Shown here: positions 7,638-53,300 of the stretch, piece after piece
How the letters are laid out: every line of letters starts with the position of its first letter
Position numbering within the stretch: position 1 is the first letter of the stretch
Assembly: GCA_964036195.1 (NCBI GenBank)
Contig: OZ038451.1
Location: 16,000,529 to 16,064,528, forward strand
DNA length: 64,000 bases
Reading direction: 5' to 3'
Source: Sphaerolaimus hirsutus
Taxonomy: Eukaryota > Nematoda > Chromadorea > Monhysterida > Sphaerolaimidae
The notes under the pieces: model-generated
What the model was told of the DNA's origin: nothing
The model's database searches: none
The model's input: the letters and a program-made list of their open reading frames with translations, nothing else
Position numbers and translations under genes: made by a program

Positions 7638-8802
7638 AAACACCTTCCCGGTCACGTCCGGCACCCATTTTTTGATTTTACTTCTTACATCCTATCCCCA
7701 GTGCTAGGGTGCCCCAGAGGCTGAAACTTGGGGAAGATATTGGCGCAACCCCCCTCTACCTCGCATGAATTTGGGGGGGGGGGGGGGGTCGCGGCGACTC
7801 CTCTCAGGGTGGGTCGCCCTAAGCAAAAAATTTTCTCAAAAATTTGCTTATTTTCAAAAAAACCACCACTCCCAAATAGATGGCTGACTTTTGACCCCAA
7901 CAATTCACTTTTTGGAACTTTTTTATTAGACACTTGAAGAGATGGTTTACAATACTTTAAAGGGAAGGGTTTGATGTTTAAAGTTATGTAAAGAACCATA
8001 CCTCTAAAATGCCTGCATTGCAAAATTTACTTAGGACAAATTTTATGACATCATAATGACATCATTGCTGGAACAAAAATTTGCAAAATTTACACTTTAA
8101 AATTCCCCCCAAGTAAATTTTGCAATGCATGCATTTTAGAGGTATGGTTCGTTACATAACTTGAAACATCAAACCCTTCCCTTTAAAGTATCGTAAACCA
8201 TCTCTTCAAGTGTCTAATAAAAAGTTCCAAAAAGTGAATTTTTTGTCATCCATCTATTGGGGAGTGGTGTTTTTTGGAGAATAAGCGAATTTTTGAGAAA
8301 TTTTTCATGTTAATGGCCCCACACACACTAGTTGACATCGACACCAAATGTCAACTGGTGCCGATCCCGATTCAAAGTTTGCTGTCGAGCTGACGAACGA
8401 CATTCAAACATAAGCTTTGAATTGGGAACGGAACCAGTTGACATTTAATGTCGATGTCAACTAGCGTGTGTGGGGCCAATCTCACATGATTGAATAGTGT
8501 ATAGTAGGGGAGTGGTGTTGGTAACGCATACCAAAATTTTAGATTTATACCGCTCCCACAGCTCAGAAATCAGCGGGTGCCGGACCTGCTGTGGGACACC
8601 AAAAAAGCCAAAAAAAAATTTGCACTTAGGGCGACCCACCCTGAGAGGGGTCGCCGCGACCCCCCAAATTCATGAGAAGTAGAGGGGGGTTGCACCAATA
8701 CCTCCCCCAAGTTTCAGCTTCTGGCGCGCCCTAGAACTGGAGATAGGGTGTCACAAGTACTATCAAAAATAGGGTGCCGGACGTGACCGGGAAGGTGTTT
8801 AT
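7638..8802. repeat. Large inverted repeat (~1.16 kb) with a nested MITE
   Basis: The outer ends match as inverted copies: AACACCTTCCCGGTCACGTC near 7640 and its reverse complement ending near 8801. The arms then run inward through a shared GGGTCGCC/GGGG tract to a centre near 8060-8090. The right arm is longer because it contains a separate MITE at 8315-8477 and additional unrelated sequence up to about 8640. It has no coding potential. Confidence 0.8.
8315..8477. mobile_element. GGCCCCACACAC-ended MITE
   Basis: This is a 163-bp element with terminal inverted repeats of about 45 bp. They begin GGCCCCACACAC and continue through a TTGACATCGACACC phrase. A second copy of the same size is at 63493-63654. 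It sits inside the right arm of the 7638-8802 inverted repeat and so inserted after that structure formed. It is non-coding. Confidence 0.85.
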
Positions 8803-9264
8803 TACTCGACTAAGTCGCCACCCTTTAAGTGACTACATAAGCTACCTGTGCAAATGGAAGATATGGGAATATCTGCATCAGCAAATCAAGGTTTGTCACA
8901 TTCACGTACCTGGTCGACTGTGGCATCGACCAATCAGCATTCAGAAGATTTTCGAATTTACACTTGTCGTGTTTAGTTGATTCCGGGTATTTCCCAGAAT
9001 CTACATTTGCACGTTCAAATCGATGAGCACCATGGCGCACCTTTTTCAAATCTCCCTAGGATACCCTGTGCTAGGTAAGTGAATAACAAACTCACTCTAT
9101 ATGATATTCGGCAGAATATGCGCTCTTATATAAATCAAGCCTTAACAACAAAGACTAAACGGCCACGCCTATAATTCACACGCACTACGGTTGTTTCTGG
9201 CGTCTGCCCTTCAATTCTTAAGTGCTATTTTTTGTTGTGCCATGAGTGGCACACCAGACGGACA

Positions 9265-34227: not shown

Positions 34228-34409
34228 TTTATTGTGATTCGTTCTAATTATTCGCATTTTAAGGAAGTTTATGTACCTGTGTCTGCATGATGGATGTTGT
34301 ATTCATTTTTATTATGATAAAATTTTATACAAACATAATGTGATGCTATTATCCATGCTAAACTTAAGCAATCGTATTCACTGCACAGTGATTGGAAATT
34401 TTGCTGACT

Positions 34410-37400
34410 CTATTGTGGAAAACCACTGCCCTCTCCACCCATTGGTGGTCGTCCACTGCCCTCACCTGAATTTGGTTGATTCAATGAGTACATGGAACAT
34501 AATGTGCAAATAACATATGAGCACATAAACCAACCACCCTGTCCGCCCATTGGTGGTCTTCCACTACCTTCACCTGAATTTTCAAAATCCTGGTTAGTCG
34601 ACATTTATAACATAAACACTTAATAACATATGAGCATTAGAACCCACCACCCTGTCCACCCATGGGTGGCCTTCCACTGCCCTCACCTACATTTAATTCA
34701 ATACATTTGTACATAGATTTAACATAAACCACCAGCAACTTCTCAGTACATATACCAACCACCTTGTCCACCCATTGGTGGTCTGCCACTGCCTTCACCT
34801 GAATTTGATGGAGTGAATTTGTGCATATATTTAATATAATGTTTGAAAAACATCTCAGAACTTTAACAGACCACCCTGTCCACCTTGTCCACCCATTGGT
34901 GGTCTGCCACTGCCTTCACCTGAATTTGGTTGAGTGAACTTGTGCATATATTTAACATAATGTTTGAACAACATCTCATGACTTAAACCCACCACCCTGT
35001 CCACCTTGTCCACCCATTGGTGGTCTGCCACTGCCTTCACCTGAATTTGGTGGAGTGAATTTGTGCATATAACACAAATGTTTGAACAACATCTCAGGAC
35101 TTAAACCCACCACCCTGTCCACCTTGTCCACCCATTGGTGGTCTGCCACTGCCTTCACCTGAATTTGATGGAGCGAATTTGTGTGTATAACATAATGTTT
35201 GAAAAACATCTCAGAACTTTAACTTACCACCCTGTCCACCTTGTCCACCCATTGGTGGCCTGCCACTGCCTTCACCTGAATTTGGTTGATTGAACTTGTG
35301 CATATAACATAATGTTTGAACAACATCTCAGAACTTTAACAGACCACCCTGTCCACCTTGTCCATCCATTGGTGGTCTGCCACTGCCTTCACCTGAATTT
35401 GATGGAGTGAATTTGTGTATATAACATAATGTTTGAACAACATATCAGAACTTTAACAGACCACCCTGTCCACCTTGTCCATCCATTGGTGGTCTGCCAC
35501 TGCCTTCACCTGAATTTGGTTGATTGAACTTGCGCATATTACATAATGTTTGAACAACATCTCAGAACTTTAACAGACCACCCTGTCCACCTTGTCCACC
35601 CATTGGTGGTCTGCCACTGCCTTCACCTGAATTTGGTTGATTGAACTTGTGCATATTACATAATGTTTGAACAACATCTCAGAACTTTAACTTACCACCC
35701 TGTCCACCTTGTCCACCCATTGGTGGTCTGCCACTGCCTTCACCTGAATTTGGTTGATTGAACTTGCGCATATTACATAATGTTTGAACAACATCTCAGA
35801 ACTTTAACAGACCACCCTGTCCACCCTGTCCATCCATTGGTGGTCTGCCACTGCCTTCACCTGAATTTGGTTGATTGAACTTGCGCATATTACATAATGT
35901 TTGAACAACATCTCAGAACTTTAACAGACCACCCTGTCCACCTTGTCCATCCATTGGTGGTCTGCCACTGCCTTCACCTGAATTTGGTTATTGAACTTGT
36001 GCATATTACATAATGTTTGAACAACATCTCAGAACTTTAACTTACCACCCTGTCCACCTTGTCCACCCATTGGTGGTCTGCCACTGCCTTCACCTGAATT
36101 TGGTGGAGTGAATTTGTGCATAACACAAATGTTTGAACAACATCTCAGGACTTAAACACACCACCCTGTCCACCCTGCCCACCCATTGGTGGTCTGCCAC
36201 TGCCTTCACCTGAATTTGGTGGGATGAACTTGGACATAAATATAACATCAATATTTGAACAAAATCTCAGTTTTAAAACTCACCACCCTGCCCTCCCATT
36301 GGTGGCCTGCCACCTCCTTGCCCTTAATGTAGCGAATAAGTTTTGTGTGAATATGATAACGATAAGATCAGAACTGGAAAGTCAAAATTTTGGTAACCTC
36401 CAAATCCGCCACCACCTTGTCCACCCATCGGTGGCCTCATTCCACCGCCGAAGCCGAATCTACGCTTTTGCAGTGCCTGTGATACATTCTTTGTGTAGTG
36501 TTTAGTGATGTAAAAGCGCCATGGCGCCTTTGGCGCTTGGCGCTATTTTGCTGCGGCGCCATTGGCGCTTGGCGCCATGCCTATGAAAAGCGCCATGGCT
36601 CTTTTGGCGCTGGGCGCTATTTTTGACCAGCGCCAGGAACAAAATGCCTGGCGCTAGCGCCAAAGCAAAAAGCGCCATCGCGCTTCTGGCGCTTGGCGCT
36701 GGGGATCGGAAAAGCTCCATGGCGCTTGGCGCCAAAGTTCTGGCGCTTTTCACATCACTAGTAGTGTTAGCTTATTGTATGGCCACTACAGGATCTACAT
36801 GGCTAGCGGGTAGTGATGTTAAAGGCACCGGGGAAAATGGCACCGCACCGCACCGGCACCTTTGCCAACGCATGAAAAGGGCACCTGGCACCCTGGGGCA
36901 CCGGCCAGAAAATGGCACCGCACCGCACCGGCACCGGTGCCTTTTGGAAAAAATGGCACCGGCACCGAAGGGCACCGGCGGGTTGCCGGTGCTAGCACCG
37001 AAAGGCACCGCACCGGGCTGGAATTTCTGAAGTAAATATCGGGCAGTTTCTCAGTGGTCTCACCTTTGGAAGTGCATATTTCCATGAATTTTCAACCGAT
37101 TTTGATGGTTGAGCACTTAAAATGATCAGAATGATGTGGCAATTACAATGATTACAAATGAAAGATAAAATATTTAATTCATGACAATGTCCATAGCCAC
37201 TATTGTCTACTGATCGGAGTCGTTGCTGTACAGAGAATGGAACTATCTCTGTCATAAACTGACAAAAAATTTTGAACAAAAAAGTAAGATAAATATAAAA
37301 TATAAAAATAATTTAAAATTCAACAAAATTTTAGATTCGCTCATCAGATCACGTATCGGGTATTATGGATTTCACAGTAGGTATATTTATTTGATGGGAG

Positions 37401-38041
37401 GTTTACAAAATAGGCAAAAACGGTTGGGTAAATATATCGCTGTTTTTTTAAATATGAATAAGCACATACTATGGACAAAATTGCACAGCACATGAGGCCT
37501 TGGCCGGTGCCTTTCCCGGTGCCTTTTACTTTGCCCTGGTGCTAGCACCTTTGGCACCGGCAAAAAAATGGCACCGCACCGCACCGGCACCGGTGCTATT
37601 CTGAAAAAAATGGCACCGGCACCGGCATGGCACCCCTGAAGATTGCAATGGCACCGCACCAGCACCGGTGCTGGTGCCCTTCGGTGCCCAGCACCGGGGC
37701 ACCGGTGCCCCGGTGCCTTTACATCACTACTAGCGGGTTTACATGGCCAGGGAGCCTACGTCTTGCCAGTGGCCATACAATACAATTTTACCGTATTCCT
37801 TCAATAGGGAGTATACCTGATTCGAGTCACTTAATTGATTTCACTGTTCGAAATCGTACTATATTTAGAGGTTTGAACTTCTGTCAAGAATATCTGAGTG
37901 TATGTACACGCTATTGACCAAAATACGGTAGCAGTCCATGTAAAGCGTTTTGTCCGGACAGGAATGTATTTACCTATGTGCAAAACTCACTCTGCCATTG
38001 GCAAGCACTACAACTAGAGCGACAACCACGAGTTTCATCAT
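34410..38041 (-). CDS. Secreted Gly/Pro-rich repeat protein, complete, 19 exons
   Basis: Exon 1 (37991-38041) encodes a signal peptide, MMKLVVVALVVVLANGR, followed by a GTGAGT donor. Exon 2 (36398-36464) gives RRFGFGGGMRPPMGGQGG. Then come 39-nt exons 36284-36322, 34760-34798, 34648-34686 and 34535-34573, and 48-nt exons at 36162, 36046, 35930, 35813, 35696, 35579, 35462, 35345, 35228, 35111, 34993 and 34872 (lower coordinate of each). The last exon, 34410-34465, ends GEGSGFPQ-stop. Every internal repeat exon begins and ends in phase 1, so any number can be joined or skipped in frame. The full chain is 301 residues, mostly GEGSGRPPMGGQGGQG copies, without cysteine or a membrane segment beyond the leader. 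I do not recognise an orthologue; structural (cuticle, adhesive, matrix) or Gly-rich defence roles are both possible. The gene is convergent with LARGE, with 182 bp between the stop codons. Confidence 0.85.
34535..36322 (-). repeat. Tandem array of 16 mini-exon units
   Basis: Each unit is an exon of 39 or 48 nt plus an intron. In the core (34872-36209) the spacing is 116-121 bp, mostly exactly 117, giving introns of about 69 nt. Exon and intron are duplicated together. All exons are preceded by AATTCAG or an equivalent AG acceptor. Donors differ between units: GTAAGT (units at 35228, 35696, 36046), GTGGGT (34648, 34993, 35111), GTGTGT (36162), GTGAGT (36284), GTTGGT (34535, 34760) and GTCTGT (34872, 35345, 35462, 35579, 35813, 35930). 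Four units (35345, 35462, 35813, 35930) carry a Gly-to-Asp change, PPMDG. Confidence 0.9.
36503..36760. mobile_element. TAGTGATG element with GGCGCC arms, 8-bp TSD
   Basis: A perfect direct duplication GTAGTGTT (36495-36502 and 36761-36768) frames a 258-bp element starting TAGTGATGTAAAAGCGCC and ending TTTTCACATCACTA. It lies in the first intron of the Gly-rich gene, 38 bp from the acceptor of exon 2, so it sits close to the branch-point zone. Confidence 0.9.
36811..37729. mobile_element. TAGTGATG element with GGCACCG arms, 8-bp TSD
   Basis: It has the same TAGTGATG/CATCACTA termini as the GGCGCC elements and a perfect duplication CTAGCGGG (36803-36810 and 37730-37737). The arms (about 36820-37020 and 37500-37720) are instead iterated GGCACCGCACCGGCACCGG. 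The core is ~460 bp of unique AT-rich sequence. It lies in the first intron of the Gly-rich gene, next to the 36.5 kb element. Confidence 0.9.
37791..37928. mobile_element. Short CCGTAT-family element
   Basis: It starts CCGTATTCCTTCAATAGG and ends ACCAAAATACGG with TA at both sides; 138 bp. The interior contains only one weak motif copy. It is in the first intron of the Gly-rich gene. Confidence 0.65.
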
Positions 38042-38682
38042 GATTTTGGTGGTTTTTTCAGGGTGGTGTAGAATGGGGGAAAACCAGTGACCAGGAAATA
38101 TTGCAGTTAGTGTGCACACGCCGACTTTTTATATTGTGAAATTGTAGATTTTTGTAATGAATAATGCATGATAGGAAGACATGCAGTTTATTTTAACAGC
38201 TGATCAAATGTACCGTAGTTGTCATTTTCAAATGCTGTGTTAAAGATAAATATGAAGGCGAAAACTATTGACAAGAACATTTAGCTTGTTGTATACTCCA
38301 GCGACATTACACCTTACAATGAAATATACCATATCCCATCTGAATGAAAGAACAAACATAAAAATGTTTCATCATATTGATCAAAGCAATTTGATGAATA
38401 TGATGAGACAAAAAATTATGTTTGTTCTTTTTTTCAGATGGGATATAGTAGATTTCATTGTAAGGTGTTATGTCGCTAGAGTTTACATAGTTTCTGCTGG
38501 TGTACTTTCTCTATAATATGTATGATATTTGACGATGACAAACAAAAATAAGTCCAGAAAACTTTTCAGGTACTTTTCGAGGCCTCAAAAATTTTATGAA
38601 AAATTACTTCAAATTCTTATACAAAATCGTGGCCACAAAACACATAAATAAACGTGACGAAATAAAAAAATGATGTTAAATA

Positions 38683-47324: not shown

Positions 47325-50300
47325 TCACATTCTAAATACACCGAAATCGGTCTCTTGGATGGGCGCATTCAGTGCTGCGCTCAAACCCAGTCCCAAAACT
47401 GCCCTCGTGTCTATTGGGTCAATTACGCCGTCGTCCCACAGTCGAGCGGAGCTGAAAAGATGATTTTTGATTATTGATGGATGTAGAGTTTACTGAAAGC
47501 GACTTTGTGCCTGCGCACACTAGTTTTCACCAGAAAATTTGGAAAACTCATAAATCAGCGTTGAACGCATTTCAGTCTTCTAGAATGAGGGGTCCGCTAA
47601 CTACAGTTGACGAAAATTATGAGTGACCCATTCTAGAAAACTCATATGCGTTCAAAGCTGATGTATGAGTTCTCCAAATTTCGGGTGAAAACTAGTGTGC
47701 GCAGGACCATTCTCGCGTTTAGGGCTACAATTACTGATGGAAAAGCGCCACAAAAATTGTGCCATGGCGCGCAACCATTCAACGCGAACGAATATCGTTG
47801 TCGATTTTACAAAAAAATCTTCGAGCACGGCAGGACTCGAACCTGCAATCTTCGGATCCGAAGTCCGACGCCTTATCCATTAGGCCACGCGCCCTCATGA
47901 GATTTGACGTGCATGTGAACCCCGACATTAAGGGTGATCTGAAGGAACACTGAAGATTCAAACGATGATTTGAAGATTCAAAAAACGCTATTTTCGGTGG
48001 TTACAGTCTTAGAAATTTTACTTCTCTGGTGTAGACTTACTTATTTTCATGAAAAAAGTCGTCTGATAGCACCTGCTGTTAAATATTTCACACTGAAAGC
48101 GATTGATGCATTAGATACATTTTATAAGTATATGGTCCTTTTTATCAGTATATCCTTTTTCAACTGGAAATTTGATGATAAATCAGTGTAATTTTGGGAA
48201 AACAAGGAAAAAATGTTCTAATGGAAACAGCATAAATCGCTTTCTGTGCGATATATTGAATAGCAGATGCTATGAGACGACTTTTTCATGAAAATAAGTT
48301 TAACTACACTAGAGAAGTAAAATTTCTAAAATGGTAACCCACCGAAAATCGAGTTCTTTGAATCTTCAAATCATCGTTTGAATCTTCAGTGTTCCTTCAG
48401 ATCACCTTTAATGTCGGGGTTCACATGCACGTCAAACTTCATGAGGGCGCGTGGCCTAATGGATAAGGCGTCGGACTTCGGATCCGAAGATTGCAGGTTC
48501 GAGTCCTGCCGTGCTCGAAGATTTTTTTGTAAAACGGCAGTGGAAAATCGACGGTAACCTATAATATTGGATACAATATATCGCGGTGGAATGGTTGCGC
48601 GTCACAGCATAATTTTTGTGGCGCTTTTCCATGACTAATTGTAGCCCCAAATGCGAGAATGGCGCTACGCACACTGAAGCCGAAATATTCGGCATACGCA
48701 CGTTTTCATCTGCCGAATCCGAACTAAAAAAATGCTGTTCGGACGGTTTTAGACCAGCATTTTTGGGTCCAGACATTCAGCAACCGTACGAATTCGGACA
48801 AATTCGGACGGATTTAGATGATTTTCCAGCATTTTTGGTCATATGCTGAATTTAACATTTCAGCATCTTGTGAAAAAATTGTATCCGGACACTTTCATTT
48901 CAGCAAACCAGTTCAGCAATTGGCAGAACATCTACTGCTGTGAAATGATCCAGATCTCATCTAGTTTTTCATACATCTTCATGAAACATTTTTTATGAAC
49001 ATGTATGAACATGATCTTCAAAAATGAAGACTATAAATTTTTTTTTAAAAACTGCTCATTCTTGAGATATTGTAGTTCAGCACAGTTCAACAGTGTGTAA
49101 ACAGAAAAAACGTACGAACCATTTTGGGAATTTGGGCAATGTGTGTACATGAGTAGGGTTCAAACGGGATTGACTTTTCGGGATCAGGATCAGGATCGGG
49201 ATTCACTTTTTGAGATTTCGGGATCGGGATTGGTAATTTGAGATTTCGGGATCGGGATTGGCCGGGATTGGGGTCACGGGATCGGGATTGGGATAGGCAT
49301 TTTTCCGGGATCGGGATTGGGTTCTAGGGATAGAAATTTTGGCCATTTTTCTGGCATTCACAGTTGTTCATAAAGGTCTCAAAACACTGTTGGATGCCAG
49401 AAAAGTGGCATAAAATTGACGCTGGGGGTTTGCATCCACTTTTTTTGCATGCAAAAATGTCATTATTTCACTTTTTATAATTTCCACTAATTTTTCCGGG
49501 ATCGGGATCCCGTACTTGGGAGTTTCTCGGGATCAGGATCGGGATTTGAAAACTTTCGGGATCGGGATTGGTATTTTTGAGATTTCGGGATCGGGATCAG
49601 GATTGGGGTTTCAGGATCGGGATCGGGACTAGTAAATCCCGGAATTTCACGGGATCCGGGATCCCGTTTGAACCCTATACATGAGCGAATAGTAATGATA
49701 AACATTGGAACAGCGCGTGCCTAGGGTGTCAAAAAAATTTTGTTATGGAAAATGGAAACGGAAATTTTTTTGCACTTGCCAGAAAACGGAAATAAAATTT
49801 CAGCAACAAGGAAAACAAGGCCGGAAAACTGGAAATGGAAAAATGAAATTTTGCCAGAAAACAAAAAAAATTGTGGAAATTTCCTGGAAATGCTAAAAAT
49901 TGCTGAAATTTTGATGGAAAATGGAAAAAGTCACATAATTGAAAACCTGCATGCATGTTTACCAGTTTGGCTGAAACAGAAAACAGACAATTGAGCCAGA
50001 AAAGGGGAATATGAGGCTGAAAAACTGAAAATTGAGCCTGAAAACGGGAAAAAGGAGGAAAAACTGAAAATTCAGCCGGAAAAAGGCAGAAAAACTGAAA
50101 ATTTAGCCAGAAAAGGGATAATTAGCCAGAAAAACAGGAACGGAAATGGAAAAAAATTTTGTAGTCGGAAAATGGAACGGAAAATGGAAAAATTAATTCA
50201 ATTACCGGAAAACGGAATGGAAAATGGAAAAAATTTGCCTGCAGAAAACGGAAACGGAAATTTGTCACCCTAAGCATGCCTGCAAACCAGATTGTTGAAA

Positions 50301-53300
50301 GTAATCAATGTTTTCAAAGTTAATGTAAAATATTCATTTTTAGTCACTCCTGAGTGCAGAAAACGTATAGTAGAATTTTTTACTTTTATTTCCATGGGAA
50401 AATGTAAAAGTAAGTATTTTTGAAAACGATGACCATAATTTTCACTAGAAGTCACCCTTAACCCCAATTTTCATCCTTTTTGCCACTGCACACATGAAGT
50501 TGTGCATACACTGTAGCATCTGCCAAGCAGGGTTGGTTTTAGTAAAATTATTTTTACTGAAACTGCAGTAAAATTGTAAATAAATTATATTTTATTTTTA
50601 TTTTTTCTTCAATTTTCCATTTTATTTTTATTTTTTATTCTTCAATTTTCCATTTTATTATTATTTTATTATTATTTTATTTTTATTTTTTATTCTTTGT
50701 GACCAGGATTAGTTTTTGTGAAATTCTTTTTACTAAAATTGTAGTAAAATTGTATAAAAATTGTATTTGATTTTTTTTTTCTGAGATTTTGCCAACCCTG
50801 CTGCCAAGTAAAACCAATAATTATCCAAAATTTAGTTGACACAATTTTTGATGTCAACTAGTGTCAGGGGTATTCTAGTTTTCGGCCCTCCTGGGTGTTG
50901 GATAGATAGCAAATCACTCCTCCGGAGGGATAGATAGCTGAAAATTTTTCTGGGGGGGGGGGGTTCGCGGGGGCTCAATATATAGGCATAGAAGGGAGGA
51001 AAAGGAGAAAAATTGCTAAAAGTAGGTGAAAAATGGCTAAAAATGGGTATATAAGGACATATAGTACTAAAAATAGCTCAAAATAGGCAGTTAGATGCAC
51101 GAACTAGTGATTTTGGAGGTGAAAATCTATATATAGGTATGAAAATAGCGATTTTGAGCGAAAATTAGGGTATAGTTTCCCAAAAATCGCTCCAGATAGG
51201 TAGATAGCTGGCCGATTGGGGGGAGGGGTTTAGGGGATAGTAGCCCAAAATTTTGCCTCCGGGATAGATAGATAGCTGAGCGGCCTCTGGAATAGATAGA
51301 TAGCTGGGTGATTTGGGGGGGGGGGGAACCCCCCCTTTCCTACCCCTGACTAGTGTGTGTGACAAGATATAATTGATGACAATTTTTGATGTCAACTTTA
51401 TGACAAGATATAATTAGTTACATTCTCTGTACAGCATCAACTTCGGTCAATAGACAATAGTGATTATGTATATTGGATAGGGTTGGCACTAGGGTCGAAA
51501 CGGAATCCCGATCCCGATCCCAAAACATTTCGGGATTTGGTGGTCCCGATCCCGATCCTGAAACCTCAATCCTGATCCCGATCCCGAAATCTCAAAAGCC
51601 AATCCCAATCCCGATCCAGAAACTTTCAAAATCACAATCCCGATCCCAAAAAAATTTATACAATCCCAATCCCGATCCCAGAAAATTTGGTCAACCTCAT
51701 TAAATGCCCTTTTTGCATTAATAAATTTTAACCAATGTCCACTTTATGCCTCTTTTCTGGCATCCAGACGTGTTTTTGAGCCTGTTTTGTGAAAACATTG
51801 GCAAAAAACGTGTATATTAGAATGTTTTCAAAAATGCCATTACCGATCCCGAAAAATGCCAATCCCGATCCCGAAAGGTCAATCCCGATCCCGAAATCTC
51901 AAAAACCAATCCCGATCCCGATACCAAAAGGTCAATCCCGATCCGATCCCGAGATCTCAAAAACCAATCCTCGTTTATCTTTGCATTTCAGCATTTGAGA
52001 TTTTATCCTATTGCTGAATGTTTCCGCATGAAAAAGTGTACGCATCTTTTGAATGCTGAAATACATGCTGAATTGACAAACCGCCTAATTTTCAAGAGTA
52101 CGGACGATTTGAGTTCAGCAAGTTTTTTTCTATTCAGCATTTAATTCGGCATTTGTCAAAAACGTGCGTATGCCGAATATTTCGGCTTCAGTGTGCGTAG
52201 CGCCATTGGGCCTGCGCACACTACTTTTCACCCGAAATTTGGAAAACTCATGAATGAGCTCTGAACGCATTTGAGTTTTCTAGCCTTCTTTTCAATTTCC
52301 GGGAACCGTTAACGTGACGGTTCACAGACACGCATTCTTCATGAGGGCGCGTGGCCTAATGGATAAGGCGTCGGACTTCGGATCCGAAGATTGCAGGTTC
52401 GAGTCCTGCCGTGCTCGAAGATTTTTTTTGGTAAAATCGGCAATACATAACCGATAAAAACCAAATACATAAATCCATCAGCAAAAGCTTGTTTTACCAG
52501 TGAAAAAGTGAGTGTGAAAAAAATTGACGTGTCGCAAACCTGAAATAGGGGTGACCTTCGTATTCAAATCTCTCCTCAATAGGCTTTTTCAGTGCTCTAT
52601 CCTCCTCGTCTGTCCACGTTTTGCCCTCCCGCTCCCTAAAAAGTTCGTAGTAAAGTGCTAAATGAAGGAAAGTGCCTAGAATAAGGACTTCATACAGAGC
52701 CAACTTTGGTTTGTTAATAAAAATTGTTATGGTGAACAACAATAATTTGGCAGCAAAAATTTGAAAGTCGATATTCCACGTGCGACGTGCAAAGTCCTCG
52801 ACAGTGGCCTACTGACATCGATTTTTTTCTATTCAAAATAAGCATTTTCAAACGAAAATAGCACAATAAAATACATAAATATAAATTCATCAAGGTTGCA
52901 AACCCAAACCACATTTTAGATTGATTGGTTACTTTTTACACTTTAAGTGCCTCCTGAAAACCCCCCAACCCCACCTGCGATCCTTCTGAATCTGCGCGAG
53001 AACGTTGGCAGCCTGTGCTCCGCCCATGACCGAAATTCTGGCATTGGGCCACATGAACACAAAACGGGGCCCGTACGCCCGCCCGCACATGCCGTAGTTG
53101 CCCGCGCCGTAAGACCCGCCTGCGGGCACGAAAGTACATATGAGGTTGGAGTGATGTTTACCCGATATTTCGGGCAGAATGATGCAGAATAGGTCAACGA
53201 GAATGACGAATATGGAGCATTTTAGATGTTTTTGATGTTCGACATATATCCATGATAACTCAAACTTTTTCGTCTATGAACCGACAGAAACCAACCAATA

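Follow-up and report, generated by a model that had tools for sequence, protein, structure and literature searches.

Can a protein-coding gene be assembled largely from near-identical copies of a single very short exon, each copied together with its own intron? The question is raised by a tandem array in the nematode Sphaerolaimus hirsutus, which lies within the window analysed here (the whole stretch of 64,000 nucleotides, positions 16000529-16064528 of its contig). A unit of 117 bp is present there in 12.8 copies (34759-36270, 92% matches), and its Tandem Repeats Finder score of 2380 is the highest among the 83 rows for the window.

A complete model of 19 exons can be drawn on the minus strand (38041-34410), from an ATG at 38041 to a TAG ending at 34410. 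When joined, the exons give a single open frame of 918 nt, or 305 residues. The exons measure 68, 62, 39, 12 x 48, 3 x 39 and 56 nt (the last with the stop), and all introns are 68-75 nt long except intron 1 (1514 nt). Exon 1 (37974-38041, minus strand, as for all features of the gene; phase 0 to 2) contains the start codon and encodes an N-terminus, MMKLVVVALVVVLANGRVSFAHR, that by eye resembles a signal peptide. A putative TATA box (TATAAAA, 38127-38133) precedes the ATG by 92 nt, and immediately upstream of this box lies an inverted repeat (38290-38487) with 72-nt arms that are 90% complementary and separated by a 54-nt spacer. Intron 1 (36460-37973) holds two inserts with terminal inverted repeats, located at 36503-36760 and 36811-37729. 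Their ends are related (TAGTGATGT...) and by eye they are bordered by 8-bp direct repeats (AACACTAC; CCCGCTAG), features that we take to resemble those of hAT-type non-autonomous elements. Exon 2 (36398-36459, 62 nt, (R)FGFGGGMRPPMGGQGGGGFG) runs from phase 2 to phase 1 and is followed by 16 symmetric phase-1 mini-exons (exons 3-18), four of 39 nt and 12 of 48 nt. Exon 3 (36284-36322, 39 nt) encodes GQGGGRPPMGGQG. Exons 4-15 (34872-36209, introns 68-73 nt) form the homogenised core of 12 48-nt exons encoding GEGSGRPPM[G/D]GQGGQG. Three further 39-nt mini-exons, exon 16 (34760-34798), exon 17 (34648-34686) and exon 18 (34535-34573), lead to the terminal exon 19 (34410-34465), which encodes GEGSGRPPMGGEGSGFPQ and ends in TAG. 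A candidate poly(A) signal (AATAAA, 34308-34313) lies 97 nt past the stop.

This model agrees with a preliminary description of the same span, which had proposed at least 12 exon-plus-intron units of about 117 bp, shorter 39-nt units on both sides of them, a signal-peptide exon, a stop exon and 16 mini-exons, a count that is correct for the symmetric exons out of a total of 19. The description had also held that all internal exons are symmetric. This is true of exons 3-18 and not of exon 2, which, because of its asymmetry, would not be freely droppable.

Must the repeats be spliced? Read-through from the mini-exons meets an in-frame stop in 15 of the 16 downstream introns, and the repeats therefore cannot form one exon. 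The last intron (34466-34534, 69 nt, after exon 18) has no such stop and is open in frame, so that its retention would add 23 residues. The sequence thus supports the view that the array, if translated as modeled, is necessarily spliced. Suitable sites are present throughout: the donors after exons 3-18 all fit GTNNGT with a G at position +5 (16/16), and AG precedes each of exons 3-19 (17/17). The mini-exon donors are a mixture of GTAAGT (three), GTGAGT (one), GTCTGT (six) and other sequences (six). The donor consensus is CAG/GTAAGT, and the GTCTGT donors match it at five of nine places; with such weak donors in 6 of the 16 mini-exons, inclusion of every exon would not be obligatory. At the 5' end of the gene, an alternative donor of exon 1 (AGA/GTGAGT, phase 0) keeps the frame when joined to acceptor AAAAG/CGT or CACAG/GCA, exon 2 then running from phase 0 to 1. 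Three of the six joins tried are open, which makes the first residues past the signal peptide uncertain. One comparison speaks mildly against the splicing model, namely that the array introns (about 70 nt) fall well below the 27 gaps that separate one chaperonin exon match from the next in this genome (256-1491 nt). These gaps were drawn from 57 matches after 11 neighbouring pairs had been dropped because their profile steps did not abut, and the dropped pairs include gaps of 151 and 184 nt (profile overlap).

The alternative is that the array is a minisatellite with a mere resemblance to exons, and the pattern of substitutions bears directly on it. Compared with the core consensus, exons 16-18 and the opening 26 nt of exon 19 show 12 differences (none in exon 16, five in exon 17, four in exon 18 and three in exon 19), and all 12 changes are synonymous, AGA to CGA among them. 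Random changes would be synonymous in a fraction of 0.263, giving P ~1e-7 for 12/12 if the changes are independent and P = 2.3e-5 for the eight distinct changes, also all synonymous. Exon 3 and the remainder of exon 19 lie outside this test; the former reads Q in place of E and G in place of S, and the latter has E where other units read Q. Within the core, D replaces G in 4 of the 12 exons. Over the 16 mini-exons pN/pS is 0.133, compared with 2.18 (plus frame 1), 2.31 (minus frame 2) and 1.17 (minus frame 1) in the control readings; one antisense control (minus frame 0) is also below one, at 0.244, and plus frame 2 is interrupted by stops in 15 of the 16 exons.

What favors a minisatellite is the core itself, where the units are homogenised over exon and intron together and pN/pS for the 12 exons alone is 0.95, a value drawn from little variation (four variable columns, three of them third positions and one a Gly/Asp site). 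Against it, in addition to the purely synonymous changes of the tested 3' exons, the introns diverge faster than the exons. Core exons are 97.7% identical and core introns 88.2%, with 4 of 48 exon columns variable versus 18 of 69 intron columns (Fisher P 0.017). Exons 3, 16, 17 and 18 retain 81, 96, 89 and 91% identity, while the introns that follow them retain 74, 63, 61 and 71% (shuffled sequence, about 50%). The exon-like and spacer parts hence do not evolve alike, as they would in a minisatellite with no coding role, in which the changes would also show no codon bias. A single frame also runs from start to stop, with GT and AG in all units. A minisatellite that only looks like a series of exons is extremely unlikely, and in its plain form it was rejected on the codon pattern and the intron-versus-exon divergence. 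The mutation pattern suggests instead that selection preserved the encoded protein, and the older 3' exons have changed in a way consistent with purifying selection on the reading frame. The earlier proposal of a coding, modular gene is borne out by these synonymous changes, by the faster divergence of the introns and by the single frame, and we predict with high confidence that the locus is a spliced protein-coding gene.

How did the array reach its present form? The 12 core units contain 20 informative columns, 17 of them two-state, and 44 of the 136 pairs of two-state columns fail the four-gamete test, a sign that the core units have a mosaic structure. Neighbouring units have a mean identity of 0.934, which drops to 0.894 for units seven apart, though not quite monotonically. 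Local unequal exchange together with gene conversion fits this pattern in the core, and growth of the array by unequal exchange is quite likely; the mosaic units and the decay of similarity with distance give indirect support to the earlier suggestion that the gene grows or shrinks in this way. The module gained, lost or overwritten through exchange and conversion would be one 117-bp unit of exon plus intron. Each unit brings splice sites of its own and is neutral in phase, so that gaining or losing core units would do no more than alter the length of the protein, by 16 residues each.

The array was found at one locus in the 348-Mb genome; strongly diverged relatives could escape detection. 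All nine matches to a 236-bp array query fall in this locus, and a 221-bp promoter/exon-1 query has a single match. The DNA queries thus found no second copy of either the array or the promoter in the assembly. At the protein level the GRPPM pattern has 19 matches genome-wide, 17 inside the gene and two elsewhere (L027 and L028), with no exon array seen around these two in 601 bases each read by eye; the reversed pattern, used as a control, gives four forward and no reverse matches. The stricter pattern RPPMGGQG has 13 matches, all in the gene (control, 0 and 0). The genes adjoining the array gene are an mL44 gene and a Glyco_transf_49 gene: in a Pfam scan of 10 open frames of the window three were matched, with Glyco_transf_49 above the cut-off and two mL44 domains below it. 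The window also contains three copies of tRNA-Arg(TCG) within 4.6 kb, with equal Rfam scores (47822-47894, 48445-48517 and 52345-52417).

In the host genome, 56 matches were found to the cuticle-collagen N-terminal domain, which is typical of nematodes. The mitochondrial contig (L031) is 14.75 kb long with 17% GC; genes occupy both of its strands and their order is rearranged (names other than cox1 were read by eye), an arrangement that would suggest an enoplean nematode (PMC9115964). In cox1, judged from conserved positions, TGA stands for Trp, AGR for Ser and AAA for Lys. An origin from a sponge or a hairworm was rejected on the AGR and AAA readings, on the cuticle-collagen matches and on the mitochondrial gene order, which, as read by eye, disagrees with that published for gordiid hairworms (PMC10380579). 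A cytochrome b-like frame (L031:7699-8884) is spread over two overlapping frames (7699-8211 and 8054-8884), reflecting a frameshift or an assembly error, and an AT-rich repeated array (L031:4000-5545) lies between frames read by eye as atp6 and cox3. Hairworm mitochondria carry long inverted repeats; here, among the best 25 inverted repeats per stretch, one 22-nt pair (95%) falls in the nad6-like frame and the others are AT-rich.

What would the product do? Assuming cleavage after residue 21, the mature chain has 284 residues and consists of Gly (47.5%), Pro (13.0%), Gln (10.9%), Arg (6.7%), Met (6.7%), Glu (6.0%) and Ser (6.0%), among others. The predicted chain lacks Cys, Tyr, Trp and Lys entirely and contains only four Phe, and most units carry one acidic and one basic residue. 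Its GRAVY is -1.23 and its charge about -2 at pH 7. From this composition the product is probably disordered, and from its N-terminus, a signal peptide as judged by eye, probably secreted. The whole product matches no Pfam family at E up to 1, its first 136 residues match no PDB sequence at E up to 1, and the text string GRPPMGG occurs in none of 5.39 million papers searched, all in line with the earlier description, which knew of no named family with this sequence.

We favor, as rather more probable than not, a one-locus gene encoding a glycine-rich repeat protein that is secreted and probably disordered, its array shaped by unequal exchange and conversion, with extracellular material as the likeliest destination. 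A structural or material role, taken by itself and read from the composition, has about an even chance. The lack of Cys, Tyr, Trp and Lys, together with the single acidic and single basic residue of most units, would make this an uncross-linked, water-holding or elastic material. Possible sites are the cuticle or egg coat, a gel or a gland secretion. In such a material the length of the product would matter and the exact number of units would be loosely constrained.

Alternatively, the product may be an antimicrobial or immune peptide. In Caenorhabditis elegans, glycine-rich peptides of this type are encoded by caenacin/nlp-type genes of the epidermis, and a secreted-type start followed by 47.5% glycine invites comparison with them. 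This is highly improbable, as the chain is not cationic, has no aromatic-glycine motif of the YGGYG type (four Phe and no Tyr in 284 residues) and has no Pfam match. It is also possible to imagine a precursor cleaved at the conserved Gly-Arg (monobasic or amidation-like) into many short peptides, one copy per mini-exon, given that GRPPM is intact at 17 of the 18 RPPM sites. We regard such processing as quite improbable: dibasic sites are absent between the copies of the predicted product, and Arg is followed by Pro in each conserved site, where Pro hinders most Arg-directed cleavage.

A third possibility is a protein secreted at a host interface and diversified through splicing and allelic array length, in the manner of the micro-exon genes (MEG) of schistosomes or the HYP effectors of cyst nematodes. 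The signal-peptide-like start and symmetric mini-exons would suit this, as would the nematode host, the homogenising tandem array and the mixture of strong (GTAAGT, GTGAGT) and weak (GTCTGT) donors. However, the unit is nearly invariant, with 12/12 synonymous changes in the tested 3' exons and a single variable amino-acid site (G/D) among the 12 core exons, and HYP variation, in the available parts of the published accounts, is confined to one exon (PMC11228951, PMC4177990). A host-interface role is therefore unlikely. A different use of the same features would be a secreted polymer of programmable length, a spliced counterpart of HYP, in which unit number (changed by DNA exchange) and regulated splicing together adjust polymer length, at the scale of the individual or of the population. 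The phase-neutral splice sites of each 117-bp cassette and the mixed strong GTAAGT and weak GTCTGT donors would provide the means, and we consider this reading distinctly unlikely.

The gene would be a compact case of a repetitive extracellular protein built and edited through duplication of whole exon-plus-intron cassettes, in which the protein is under selection and exon and intron alike are homogenised by recombination. Its 16 mini-exons occupy about 2 kb, and a natural array of this small size lends itself to the study of exon-number variation, splice-site strength and concerted evolution. Repeats of short exons may be easily missed or mis-modeled by annotation pipelines, and similar genes may therefore be under-counted.

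Does this organization have precedents? In the available parts of the published descriptions, Flag of Nephila and MaSp2 of Argiope are built of tandem exon-intron units with introns homogenised within the gene (PMC1885213, PMC9779670). The present gene likewise encodes a secreted repeat protein dominated by a few residues, and its tandem units show the same trait (core introns 88.2% identical, mosaic units), a resemblance of architecture only. Differently to the silk genes, its exons (39-48 nt) and introns (about 70 nt) are far smaller, its product has 305 residues and no Pfam match, its repeat is unrelated as far as searched, and the host is a nematode. Neither spidroin terminal domains nor any other family were found in Pfam (whole product) or PDB (first 136 residues) at E up to 1.

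The vertebrate elastin gene has many small exons that share one codon-splitting phase and act as cassettes, encoding a glycine/proline-rich extracellular protein. The small same-phase exons and glycine/proline-rich product described here are similar, whereas the near-identical units and tiny introns set them apart, as does cross-linking: elastomers of the elastin or resilin type are cross-linked through Lys or Tyr, and the predicted mature product has neither.

Schistosoma MEGs encode secreted proteins with a signal peptide, from numerous short exons whose lengths are mostly divisible by three; as far as the available text of the source describes them, their introns span 0.1-5 kb, their exons are mostly of 15 bp and there are 35 genes in the species (PMC10526429). 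Here too a signal-peptide-like exon (by eye) precedes 16 symmetric exons of 39-48 nt. By comparison with that account, the introns are short (68-75 nt), except for intron 1 (1514 nt); moreover, a single locus was found and its exons are near-identical. MEGs are also characterised by several spliced isoforms per gene. If AAA codes for Lys in cox1, as seems to be so, the present host is no flatworm either.

The HYP effectors of cyst nematodes are secreted proteins with tandem motifs, encoded at single-gene loci, and HYP1 is glycine-rich; in the portions of the reports available, the repeat domain lies in one exon with conserved flanks of 410 and 94 bp, HYP1 motifs are 5-6 residues long, and alleles vary in the number and order of motifs (PMC11228951, PMC4177990). 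A nematode secreted protein with glycine-rich tandem motifs at one locus resembles them as so described. In contrast, its repeat is spread over many exons and differs from the HYP1 motifs in length and sequence, and no membership is claimed.

The kind of architecture is known from spidroin, elastin and micro-exon genes; the present version is extremely compact, and its repeat matches nothing found. It shares a trait with each of these systems, yet it lacks one tested defining feature of MEG and one of HYP and no family is matched, and the gene is thus best regarded as a variant of a known architecture.
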